Assembly: GCF_024494725.1 (NCBI RefSeq)
Contig: NZ_JANHDK010000002.1
Location: 1 to 64,000 of the forward strand
DNA: 64,000 nt
Direction of reading: 5' to 3'
Source of the DNA: Haloplanus ruber
GTDB taxonomy: Archaea; Halobacteriota; Halobacteria; Halobacteriales; Haloferacaceae
The position numbers and the translations under genes are program-made. The notes beneath the pieces are model-generated. The model ran no database searches, had not been told where the DNA came from, and worked only from the letters and a program-made list of their open reading frames with translations. Shown here one piece after another: positions 5,770 through 61,116 of this stretch (the stretch's first letter is position 1; each line of letters starts with the position of its first letter).

Positions 5770-6417
5770 ATGGACGGCGCACCGCGACCACGGTCGAGTG
5801 GAGGTGGGGACGCCCTCGCTCGGTCGTCGATCATCGGCGACCTGCGCCAGCGTCGAGTCCTCTCGCTTCTGTTAGACCGGTCCCCGCTGACGGAACGCGA
5901 ACTCGCTGTCCGACTCCTCGCACGTGAGCGTGGCCTCGCACCCGCGGCCGTCTCCGAGACCGACCTCGACCCAGTGCAGACCGACCTCCGTCACCGATGT
6001 CTCCCGCAACTAGAGGCTGTCGGCTGGATCGACCGCTGTCCGGACGGCGTCGTCCTCGACGAGCGACCAACCTTCGAGTCTGTCACCCCATCGCCACCGG
6101 ATCTACGGACACCCGAGGATCCCGCCTGGGACGCCATCGGCGCCCTCCTCGCACGACCGTATCGGGCGGACGTCGTCACGCTACTCGCGAATCGGGACCG
6201 CGACACCACCGTAGCGGACCTCGTCACTGCCCTCCGCGAGCGCCACACGGCGTCCGCGCTCCCCGAAGACGACCGGTCCCTCCGGATCTCGCTTCACCAC
6301 GTCGACCTCCCGAAACTGGCGTCCACGGGACTGGTCGCGTACGATGCATCGGCACGAACCGCCACACCAACCCCCCGCCTGACCGCGTTCGTCGACCGGA
6401 TCGACCTCGATAACTGA
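5770..6417 (+). CDS. Tandem winged-helix protein (DUF7344-like)
   Basis: About 215 residues made of two similar winged-helix units: the first around RSSIIGDLRQRRVLSLLLDRSPLTERELAV, the second around the PYRADVVTLLANRDRDTTVADLV stretch. Each continues into an LRHRCLPQLEAVGWI or LHHVDLPKLASTGLV helix. Such duplicated modules are common in haloarchaea, usually annotated as DUF7344, and probably bind DNA. An in-frame ATG at 5743 exists, but AT-rich sequence around 5744 is 26 bases before the ATG at 5770, so the shorter form is preferred. It follows the Bat-type regulator on the same strand with its own promoter. Target genes are unknown. Confidence 0.75.
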   Translation: MDGAPRPRSSGGGDALARSSIIGDLRQRRVLSLLLDRSPLTERELAVRLLARERGLAPAAVSETDLDPVQTDLRHRCLPQLEAVGWIDRCPDGVVLDERPTFESVTPSPPDLRTPEDPAWDAIGALLARPYRADVVTLLANRDRDTTVADLVTALRERHTASALPEDDRSLRISLHHVDLPKLASTGLVAYDASARTATPTPRLTAFVDRIDLDN

Positions 6418-57758: not shown

Positions 57759-58089
57759 GTTCCCCACGTGTTTTCCAGAAGCGGTTCCCACAACGAGCGA
57801 AGAATCCCCCGATGAGGGGGACAGTGGGTGGATGCCACCTTCCGATTTGAACTCGCCGAGACGGTCCGGGCGTGCGACTCGCTTCACTTTCTGTTCCGGG
57901 CTGCGACTCGTCTGCTCAAATCGAGTGAAGCTGTACCGAGCGAAGCGAGGTTTCACCGGACGCGACCGCAGGGAGCGTCCGGGAGTTTTTCCCCACGTTT
58001 TTGCAAGGAGTGGTTCCCGCAGTGAGCGAAGCGAGCGAGGAAACCCGACGCAGCAAAAAGTGGGTGAATGCCGCCTCCCCGATTTGAAC
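57759..58089. repeat. Degenerate duplication of the tRNA-Phe 3' flank
   Basis: Two imperfect direct copies of about 94-102 bases, 57759-57852 and 57988-58089. Shared blocks include TTCCCCACGT, GGTTCCC, GAGCGAAG and GTGGGTG. Both end in a tRNA 3' end and T arm: the second is the real tRNA-Phe (ATGCCGCCTCCCCGATTTGAAC on two lines of text), the first a mutated copy with ATGCCACCTTCCGATTTGAAC-like sequence. The 135 bases between them hold no gene. A hairpin (TCCCCC, 5 bases, GGGGGA; 57805-57821) lies in the left copy. This covers the 334-base gene-free gap and looks like a scar of integration or of tRNA duplication. Confidence 0.6.
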
Positions 58090-58142
58090 GGGGGACAGCT
58101 CGATCTTCAGTCGAGTGCTCTCCCAGTCTGAGCTAAGGCGGC
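58069..58142 (-). tRNA. tRNA-Phe (GAA)
   Basis: A complete cloverleaf on the minus strand. The acceptor stem GCCGCCT pairs with AGGCGGC, and the anticodon stem CTCGA/TCGAG encloses CTGAAGA, giving anticodon GAA. The T arm CCCCGTTCAAATCGGGG is canonical. The discriminator is A and CCA is not encoded. A degenerate copy of its 3' end lies about 230 bases away (57829-57852). Confidence 0.97.
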
Positions 58143-58200: not shown

Positions 58201-58812
58201 TCAGACGACCGTCCGTTCCTCGGTGAACGTGCGGGTGGCGTTGGCCGTCCGAACGACCGTCTCGATCCGGATACGGCCGTCGTTGGCCTTGATCTTCGCG
58301 GCGTCAGCGTAGCCGATACGGACCGTCCGCGTCCGCGTGGCCGTCTCCTCGGTCGCGATGCGCCCGACGTCGGAACTCGCCTCCCAGACGAGGCTGTCGC
58401 CGGTGGTGATGCTGGTGGCGACACGGACGTCGCGGGCCGCCTCCGCCCCCTCGTTCGACAGCGCGATGGTGACCGTCCGACACCGGGACCCGCAGTTCTC
58501 GACCGACCGGACACGCATCGTGACGTTCGGCGACGTCGCCGCCGCTGGCGCCGCGGTCGGCGTATGAGTTGGTGTCGCGGCGGCCGGCCCGGTCGCGCCG
58601 CTGTCGGCGTCCGCGGCAGTCGTGTCGTTGGGCGGCGCGAGGATGAGCGCCGCCGTGCCGGCGACGGCGACGACGAGCAACGCGGCGAACACGAGTTCCA
58701 TCCGTCCCCAAGAGCCGAGGGCACCCGAGTTGTCGGCGTCGGCGTCGCTCTCGGCGTGAGTGCTCTCGCCCCCGGTCCCCGCCGGTGACGACGGCCGTCG
58801 CTCCCCCGACAT
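58201..58812 (-). CDS. Membrane-anchored protein with a CARDB-like domain
   Basis: About 203 residues from the ATG at 58812. A polar N-terminus of about 35 residues precedes one membrane helix (MELVFAALLVVAVAGTAALIL). A Thr/Pro/Ala linker and an extracellular beta-sandwich follow (VTMRVRSVENCGSRCRTVTI; NEGAEAARDVRVATSITTGD), with a Cys pair likely forming a disulfide. This resembles CARDB-type adhesion modules. It may be an adhesion or cell-wall accessory protein. The 190-base gap to the next gene shows nothing coding. Function unknown. Confidence 0.72.
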   Translation of the reverse strand: MSGERRPSSPAGTGGESTHAESDADADNSGALGSWGRMELVFAALLVVAVAGTAALILAPPNDTTAADADSGATGPAAATPTHTPTAAPAAATSPNVTMRVRSVENCGSRCRTVTIALSNEGAEAARDVRVATSITTGDSLVWEASSDVGRIATEETATRTRTVRIGYADAAKIKANDGRIRIETVVRTANATRTFTEERTVV

Positions 58813-59002
58813 AGGAGAGACGTGGCGGTCGGCGCGCATAGCTCTGACGGCCGGCACGGGACTCTCGCGCCGCGGGGAGGCGTAACCCCTACTCTGGCCG
58901 GTCTGTGAGTACGAGCGTACGTCCTGTCCACCTTGCGCGAACAGCCACGTCGCCACCACGAGAGGTAGGCATCGCCCGACGTCGCCGTGGACCCGAACGG
59001 CG

Positions 59003-59524
59003 TCACGCCGGGAGGCGGTAGATATCGGTATCGGTGCCGGTACCGGGGTCGCGCTCGGCAGCGGCCGCAAGGGCGTCACGGGCGAGTGCCGCGGCGTCGT
59101 CGAGCGTGTCGGGGGACTCACCGGCTTCGAGGACGCCGAGAACGAGGGCCGCGCCGCTCCCGAGTGCCGCCAGCGACTCCTCGGTGATTCCACCGTCGGG
59201 GTCGACCGAACGGAGACGCGGGACGCCCCCGTCGTCGGGGGCGGTCACGAGCACCGCGGCGTCGAAGTCGGCGGCGACGTCACCGACGAGACGGGCGAAC
59301 GCGTCGATCCGGAGTCGCCGGTGTTCGGTACGGTACGCGCGGATCTCGGCGTCGAGGCGGTCGGCAAGAGCCGGCACGTCCCCACCAGTGACGGCGACGC
59401 CGACGCCGTCGAAATCGAGGACGTGTCGTCGTGACCGACTCCGGACGTGACCCCCACTCGTGACGAGGCGGTCGCCGGCGAGGACGACCCCGGCGGGGCA
59501 GGCGACAGCGGCGACTGTGCTCAC
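59003..59524 (-). CDS. Proteasome-beta-like protein with altered active site
   Basis: A 173-residue protein that aligns end to end with the 20S proteasome beta subunit: STVAAVACPAGVVLAGDR (like TTTVGI...GVVMATDKR), GVGVAVTGGDVPALADRLDA, LRSVDPDGGITEESLAALGS and AAAAERDPGTG. By that alignment Ser2, exposed after Met removal, replaces the nucleophile Thr1, and catalytic Lys33 is Arg/His. Asp17, the GSG Ser129 and Asp166 are kept. There is no propeptide. It may be a Ser-type Ntn hydrolase or a dead paralogue. Starts with a GTG, 38 bases after ftsY on the same strand, with a GTAGGCG-tgt-CGCCTAC hairpin over the ftsY stop. Confidence 0.75.
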   Translation of the reverse strand: MSTVAAVACPAGVVLAGDRLVTSGGHVRSRSRRHVLDFDGVGVAVTGGDVPALADRLDAEIRAYRTEHRRLRIDAFARLVGDVAADFDAAVLVTAPDDGGVPRLRSVDPDGGITEESLAALGSGAALVLGVLEAGESPDTLDDAAALARDALAAAAERDPGTGTDTDIYRLPA

Positions 59525-59562: not shown

Positions 59563-60648
59563 CTACGCGCCGAGGAGGTCGTCAACCAGCGACTCGGGAT
59601 CAAACCGTTCGATATCGTCGTATCCCTGCCCGGTGCCGAGAAAGAGGACGGGCTTGCCGGTCACGTAGGCGACGGAGATAGCGGCTCCGCCCTGGGAGTC
59701 GGCGTCCGCCTTTGTCAGAACGGCACCGTCGATTTCGGCGGCTTCGTCGAACTGCTGGGCGCGTTCGACGGCGTCCTGACCGGCGACCGCCTCGTCGACG
59801 AACAGCGTGAGGTCGGGGCCGACGACGCGGTCGATCTTCTCCAGTTGGGCCATCAGGTCGCTTGAGGTATGGAGGCGGCCGGCGGTGTCACCGAGGACGA
59901 CGTCCACGTCGTTGGCCTCGGCGTACTCCACGCCGTCGTAGACGACGGCCGCGGGGTCGCCGCCCTGTTCGTGAGCGATCAGGCGCGTATCGAGGGCTTC
60001 GGCGTGCTCTCGGATCTGCTCGTTGGCGCCCGCGCGGTACGTGTCGCCGTTGGCGAGCACGGCGGAGTAACCACGCGCCTCCAGATAGCGGGCCAGTTTG
60101 GCGATGGTGGTCGTCTTCCCGACGCCGTTGACGCCCGTGAAGACGATGGTCACCGGCTTCTCCGCCTGCGCGATGCGCTCGTCGAAGTCGAACTGGCCGA
60201 CGCTGATGACCTCGAGGAGGGCGTCCCGGAGGGCGTCCTCGACGAGGTCACCGGTGCTCGCCATCTGGGATTTGGTCTCGCCGACCAGATTCGACCGAAT
60301 CTCCGCCAAGATGGCTTCCGCGACACCCATCTCGACGTCGCTTTCCAGCAGTGCCATCTCGAGGTTCCAGAGGGGGTCCTCCAGATCCTCCTCTTCGAGG
60401 ACGACCTTGCCGGTGGCGAAGGCCTTGGCTCGCTGGAGCCGGCCGGGGGAGTCGGTGTCGGCGTCGTCCGGGTCCGACGGCGTCCCGTCAGCGTCAGCCG
60501 TCGTCTCGGGGTCGGCACCGTCGTCGGAACTGGCCTCCGTCGCGGCCGCGGCGTCGTCGTCCGGGTCCGCCTCGGATTCGGCTGCCTCGGCGCTCTCCTC
60601 GACGTCGCTCCGGAAGCTGTCCAGTTTGTCCTTCAGTCCGTCGAACAT
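59563..60648 (-). CDS. ftsY: Signal recognition particle receptor FtsY
   Basis: A 361-residue SRP receptor GTPase. The N-terminal 65 residues are acidic and disordered (the A domain of haloarchaeal FtsY). The NG domain follows: VFTGVNGVGKTTTIAKLARY, VVLGDTAGRLHTSSDLMAQL, GAVLTKADADSQGGAAISVA and the C-terminal FLGTGQGYDDIERF. It works with SRP54 in co-translational membrane targeting. It starts six bases after the pfdA stop, in the conserved haloarchaeal operon with eif6 and ribosomal genes. Confidence 0.97.
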   Translation of the reverse strand: MFDGLKDKLDSFRSDVEESAEAAESEADPDDDAAAATEASSDDGADPETTADADGTPSDPDDADTDSPGRLQRAKAFATGKVVLEEEDLEDPLWNLEMALLESDVEMGVAEAILAEIRSNLVGETKSQMASTGDLVEDALRDALLEVISVGQFDFDERIAQAEKPVTIVFTGVNGVGKTTTIAKLARYLEARGYSAVLANGDTYRAGANEQIREHAEALDTRLIAHEQGGDPAAVVYDGVEYAEANDVDVVLGDTAGRLHTSSDLMAQLEKIDRVVGPDLTLFVDEAVAGQDAVERAQQFDEAAEIDGAVLTKADADSQGGAAISVAYVTGKPVLFLGTGQGYDDIERFDPESLVDDLLGA

Positions 60649-60654
60649 CGGCCG

Positions 60655-61116
60655 CTACTCGCCTTCGTCCTGCTGTTGTTGCAGTTGCTGCATCTGCTGT
60701 TGCTGCATCTGCTGTTGCATCTGCTGGGCCTGCTGTTCGAGCTCCTCGCTCTCGGATTCGAGCTCCGAGATTTCGTCGTCGACGTCGTCGATCCGGTCGT
60801 CGAGCACGTCCCGCTTGCGTTCGAGGGCGTCGATGGCGTCACCCTGCTCTTGTTCGGCCGCGTAGCCGCCGCCGAGGTCGACGATCACTTCGTCGATGTC
60901 CTGCACTTCGGCACGGAGGTACGCGCCGCCGCCGAGAGGCACCTGAACCGTCGCGCCGGTGTCGAGGGTTTCGATGGCCTCGACTGCCTCGTCGATCTCG
61001 CTCTGTCGGGTGCGGAGCGACTCGATCTCGGTTTCGAGCTCCGCAATCTCTTCGTCGATAGCCTCGATCTCCTGGGAGAGCTGCTGGAGTTGCTGCTGAC
61101 CGCCACCACCCATCAT
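60655..61116 (-). CDS. pfdA: Prefoldin subunit alpha
   Basis: A 153-residue prefoldin alpha: two long coiled coils (EIEAIDEEIAELETEIESLR; ALERKRDVLDDRIDDVDDEI) around a small beta hairpin core (ATVQVPLGGGAYLRAEV). It ends in a Gln-rich tail (QQMQQQMQQQQMQQL) that is longer than in most relatives. Together with prefoldin beta it forms a hexamer that hands unfolded chains to the thermosome. The ATG overlaps the eL20/LX stop (ATGA at 61113-61116); a second ATG directly follows. Confidence 0.95.
   Translation of the reverse strand: MMGGGGQQQLQQLSQEIEAIDEEIAELETEIESLRTRQSEIDEAVEAIETLDTGATVQVPLGGGAYLRAEVQDIDEVIVDLGGGYAAEQEQGDAIDALERKRDVLDDRIDDVDDEISELESESEELEQQAQQMQQQMQQQQMQQLQQQQDEGE

Follow-up and report, generated by a model that had tools for sequence, protein, structure and literature searches.

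A proteasome-beta-like protein of haloarchaea with an incomplete catalytic centre

The stretch of Haloplanus ruber DNA analysed here (64,000 nucleotides, positions 1 to 64,000 of contig NZ_JANHDK010000002.1; hereafter the window) encodes a proteasome-beta-like protein, PBL, in which the residues required for peptide cutting are incomplete. Based on the comparison with its relatives, we propose that PBL is probably a haloarchaeal paralogue derived from a PsmB-type beta subunit, which does not cut but serves as a binding-type accessory and is not obligatory in the 20S beta ring. At a functional level, this family cleanly combines the loss of the cutting parts with a near-constant pocket that binds the N-terminus, and it occurs in a class of archaea amenable to laboratory genetics. 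It lets one ask what a non-cutting proteasome fold does. A further question that it opens is whether inert paralogues are employed by archaeal proteasomes, as seems to be the case in Sulfolobus.

Fold, active-site positions and locus of PBL

PBL belongs to the proteasome superfamily. The Pfam Proteasome profile PF00227 was covered nearly over its whole length (E=5.2e-21; 75.6 bits, for a cut-off of 22.4), and the AlphaFold (AF2) model, for which 39 aligned family sequences were used, had a mean pLDDT of 96.7 and matched 20S beta chains in Foldseek with TM scores up to 0.91. This match is far beyond chance and bears out the initial annotation, which had assigned the 173-residue product to the 20S beta fold. 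By contrast, the archaeal PsmB model TIGR03634 scored 87.5 bits, far short of its equivalog cut-off of 224, and by this score PBL falls outside the archaeal PsmB family. Among solved structures, the best sequence match was the S. acidocaldarius beta subunit 6z46 (2.7e-16), followed by the T. acidophilum beta subunit. The model comprises 172 residues and four helices (including 49-66 and 72-86) without insertion; its last predicted strand spans residues 165-171, where the protein stops with no C-terminal coiled-coil extension. PBL thus ends after the penultimate strand, about 20 residues short of PsmB, the last strand and helix of which are absent.

When PBL and PsmB were aligned without gaps through GVVLAGDR, Met1 fell on Gly0 (the residue before the PsmB cleavage point), Ser2 on Thr1, Asp18 on Asp17 and His34 on Lys33. 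The residue exposed after Met removal is Ser and not Thr, as initially proposed, and of the two residues suggested at position 33, Arg or His, this protein has His. Downstream, the GSG motif carries Ser129, the ERD motif carries Asp166, and Ser169 is replaced by Thr. Compared to PsmB, Thr1 and Lys33 are therefore substituted by Ser and His, and Asp17, Ser129, Asp166 and a hydroxyl-bearing residue at 169 are retained, the first three as previously noted. In the place of a self-cleaved propeptide, PBL has its Met at the Gly0 position, and neither ATG, GTG nor TTG occurs in frame in the 19 codons between the upstream stop and the GTG start codon (ATG at the same place in most relatives). Hence PBL has no propeptide, in agreement with the initial reading, and an upstream start giving back Thr1 was ruled out.

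The features of the locus are listed in Table 1. The source genome contains two further PF00227 genes, encoding one normal PsmA and one normal PsmB; these genes, the minus-strand location of PBL and its shorter C-terminus had not been mentioned in the initial annotation. No match was obtained in a sigma-70 promoter scan, which does not cover archaeal promoters. The downstream neighbour gene was detected beside PBL within the genus. At 57760-58031, adjoining a tRNA-Phe gene (58069-58142, minus strand), there are a tRNA-tail-like sequence and a 43-nt direct repeat, the latter imperfect (81%), an arrangement that resembles the surroundings of an old integration site.

Table 1. Positions of PBL, its active-site codons and its neighbours in the window
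Feature	Position	Strand	Remark
PBL gene (proteasome-beta-like, catalytically incomplete protein)	59003..59524	-	173 aa, GTG start
Ser codon where catalytic Thr1 would be (position 1 after Met removal)	59519..59521	-	
Asp at the Asp17 place	59471..59473	-	Asp in 48/49 of the family
His at the catalytic Lys33 place	59423..59425	-	Family: Arg 27, His 14, Lys 6, Tyr 1, Gln 1
ftsY, SRP receptor GTPase	59563..60648	-	Same strand as PBL, 38 bp upstream of it
Prefoldin alpha subunit	60655..61116	-	Upstream of ftsY, same gene run
Downstream neighbour gene	58201..58836	-	Weak DUF7490/CARDB match, under cut-offs

Distribution, conservation and selection

A family profile built from 39 PBL members was used to search haloarchaeal genomes, and PBL was found in 49 of 391 (12.5%), representing 16 of 86 genera. 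Nearly all members scored between 157 and 240 bits, compared to 104 bits or less for PsmB; the lowest score, 115 bits, was that of a copy in genome G107 which an internal deletion has shortened to about 130 aa. Genomes of the same phylum but outside this class (about 310) gave no score above 104 bits with this profile, and a scan of named genomes with the single PBL protein matched only Bathyarchaeota and unclassified archaeal PsmB. Neither the plasmid nor the phage collection yielded a PBL match, and a plasmid or phage role was dropped on this ground.

PBL formed a single clade (100/100) with a stem length of 1.7, within the haloarchaeal beta branch (98/91), in an IQ-TREE tree of 49 PBL, 35 beta and 6 alpha sequences. 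The phylogeny with PsmB that had been suggested as a check thus returned a distinct clade, sister to haloarchaeal PsmB; its exact placement is uncertain because the stem is long. The beta subunit nearest to the PBL clade (97/85) is a divergent second PsmB of genome G120 (L066:5626-6198, plus strand), which has Thr1, Lys33 and a full C-terminus; this neighbour fits the descent of PBL from a PsmB duplicate. Genome G212 carries two PBL genes (L014 and L060), which are sisters in the tree.

Residues were counted in the 49 PBL sequences of the tree, which come from 48 genomes, G212 giving two and the degraded G107 copy being excluded. Position 1 is Ser in 18, Gly in 14, Ala in 10 and Pro in 7 members, and never Thr; seven or more changes of this position are needed on the tree, and Ser1 is found throughout the source genus. 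At position 33, Arg and His prevail (Table 1). All six members with Lys33 have Gly1, Ser1 and Lys33 occur together in 0/49, and no member combines a possible position-1 nucleophile with Lys33. The residues of the amine pocket are S/T129 in 49/49, Asp166 in 48/49 and Thr169 in 48/49, with Ser in the remaining member, and Asp17 is likewise conserved (Table 1). The oxyanion Gly47 is retained in 37 members and falls in a small deletion in genus g8. R19, K29, V49, Q53 and L65, which are invariant in PsmB, are not maintained. In yeast, the N-terminal amine of Thr1 is held by Ser129, Asp166 and Ser169, the beta5 T1S variant is processed and keeps more than half of its activity, and the K33R variant is processed yet inactive (PMC4792962). 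The residue pattern of PBL fits a protein in which cutting is lost and a docked free N-terminus is retained.

Selection was estimated among seven species of the genus (21 pairs). The mean dN/dS of PBL was 0.31 (identity 67.7%), compared to 0.08 for PsmB (94.3%), 0.16 for PsmA (90.6%) and 0.08 for FtsY (93.8%). PBL is under purifying selection, yet it evolves far faster than PsmB; these values indicate a working gene under looser constraint. The frame is open and of near-constant length in nearly all of the 49 genomes. PBL is dispensable: one species of the genus (G289) has lost it cleanly, its ftsY being directly followed by the tRNA-Phe gene and both PBL and the downstream neighbour being absent. 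In the G107 copy (L137, about 6000-6373, minus strand), about 50 residues are lost internally in frame and the GSG region is gone; this is decay in progress.

Proposed mode of action and alternatives

From the sequences compared above, we propose that the ancestor of PBL was a haloarchaeal PsmB-type beta subunit and that peptide cutting was then lost. The sequences show that the fold is kept, that Thr1 is exchanged for S, G, A or P and Lys33 mostly for Arg or His, that propeptide, C-terminal strand and helix have disappeared, and that S/T129, D166 and T169, the holders of the amine, have stayed. Methionine aminopeptidase normally takes off Met when it is followed by a small residue such as Ser, Gly, Ala or Pro, and would remove Met1 of PBL. 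The free N-terminus may then dock in the retained pocket and act there as a structural clamp, whereas a salt bridge may persist between Asp17 and the basic residue at position 33. PBL would act by binding something, as an accessory and dispensable factor located outside the obligatory 20S beta ring, and binding rather than cutting appears to be its most likely activity. That PBL is not an obligatory ring subunit is suggested by (i) its low identity among the seven species when compared to PsmB and PsmA and (ii) the loss of the five PsmB-invariant residues and the absence of H5, an element to which stabilisation of the double beta layer has been attributed (PMC8665760). Its accessory nature is suggested by its presence in one-eighth of the genomes, its clean loss in G289 and the internally deleted G107 copy. 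Some points speak against this reading: a specialised binding subunit can also evolve fast, a Sulfolobus beta subunit that is reported to be seemingly inert within a 20S particle, and that is the top match of PBL by sequence and fold, may be taken as a precedent for incorporation, and the conservation of D17, S129 and D166 could mean that some chemistry is retained.

The main rival explanation, a modulatory subunit as in one of the readings initially put forward, gives PBL a non-catalytic role within the haloarchaeal 20S particle, in which it would occupy some places of the PsmB ring or pair with PsmA rings and lower the number of active sites. The presence of one PsmA, one PsmB and one PBL in the source genome would suit such an arrangement, as would the properties of Saci0662 (PDB 6z46), the S. 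acidocaldarius beta paralogue which is the best PDB match: Saci0662 is seemingly catalytically inert, and its propeptide-less form assembles with alpha into a stable 28-subunit particle that gains activity only once a second beta subunit, Saci0909, is added (PMC4569737). However, Saci0662 has a Thr1 equivalent and a propeptide (PMC4569737), both missing in PBL, as well as Lys33 in the alignment with PBL, and the tree does not group the two proteins. In addition, PBL diverges far faster than both of its possible partners, PsmB-invariant residues are lost and H5 is absent. Incorporation into the 20S particle is a possible but rather unlikely fate for PBL.

The gene context bears on a second alternative. 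In 17 of the 49 genomes, which belong to five genera of only one family, PBL follows ftsY on the same strand; ten of these 17 have srp54 on its other side, so that PBL is flanked by the two genes, and a further genome has PBL and srp54 in convergent orientation. It had been proposed that this position hints at a link with protein quality and that co-conservation with ftsY should be checked. The link is real, but it is confined to part of one family, PBL being found elsewhere in all other lineages, and it is therefore weak evidence for a protein-quality role. One inherited place accounts for the cluster, and it is unlikely, despite the directly adjacent genes, that PBL acts together with the SRP receptor FtsY or takes part in translocon quality control. 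The AU test of the ftsY-linked members as one clade gave a p value of 0.139, so that such a clade is neither rejected nor shown. There is no gene neighbourhood common to the PBL family, the surroundings differing from lineage to lineage. PBL is beside CetZ-like and Rdx-like genes in genus g30 of family f6, and in family f9 it is beside an aspartate-dehydrogenase-like gene (all named by sequence resemblance). At six g30 loci (L040, L041, L044, L047, L069 and L133), PBL stands in a same-strand row with a CetZ-like tubulin gene and a small gene of the Rdx-like type. The neighbourhood of PBL follows descent and indicates no common function.

PBL had also been regarded as a potential dead paralogue. 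With regard to catalysis this is right; the gene itself is not dead, being subject to purifying selection in the seven species. A decaying, functionless remnant would agree with the patchy presence, the clean loss in G289, the internally deleted G107 copy and an evolution faster than that of PsmB; however, a dN/dS of about 0.3 over the 21 pairs, the open frames of near-constant length and the near-invariant amine pocket make it very unlikely. We give a similarly small chance to PBL being a new kind of Ntn-fold protein, in which the side-chain nucleophile has been dropped and the processed, pocket-bound N-terminal amine kept, Ser, Gly, Ala and Pro being interchangeable at position 1, and in which the amine or the pocket is put to a ligand binding or chemistry foreign to all known relatives of the proteasome. 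The hydrolase with a Ser1 nucleophile that had initially been considered is the least probable reading: Ser1 is genus-wide, D17, S129 and D166 are kept and yeast T1S is active, but no member pairs a nucleophile with Lys33, position 1 is G, A or P outside the 18 Ser1 members, and yeast K33R is inactive.

Relation to known proteasome homologues

A literature search, in which few subscription journals were covered, found no paper describing a haloarchaeal PBL. Inert beta subunits as such are not new: eukaryotes have them, and Sulfolobus apparently does too. In the eukaryotic 20S particle, the non-catalytic beta subunits have the beta fold without activity. Only three of the seven beta subunits are catalytic (PMC4569737). 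PBL does not belong to that lineage but is an offshoot of the haloarchaea. Its closest known relative is haloarchaeal PsmB (TIGR03634), the nearest tree branch, with which it shares the fold, most sequence motifs and D17, S129 and D166, and from which it differs by the absence of Thr1, Lys33 (in this protein), propeptide and last strand and helix and by a much faster evolution.

Fuchs et al. (2021) described 22 proteasome homologues (WPH, PHI, ACC, PMI and others), found through conserved active-site residues (PMC8665760); such a survey would tend to miss or merge relatives lacking these residues. In that work, a propeptide is absent outside Psm-beta and HslV, and group I (HslV, BPH, AAH, CPH and PPH) is also devoid of S12 and H5 (PMC8665760). 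These homologues, together with Anbu, BPH and connectase, belong to the same superfamily as PBL, which is set apart from the Fuchs et al. homologues by described features: Thr1 is absent, Lys33 is mostly absent, and there is no coiled-coil tail or large insertion. PBL fits none of the tested described features of the 22 homologues. WPH and ACC have a C-terminal coiled-coil extension, whereas PBL ends after its last strand; PHI and PMI have helical or multiple core insertions, of which the PBL model has none; and connectase lacks the first helix pair and bears an insertion between S3 and S4, whereas PBL has both helices and no insertion.
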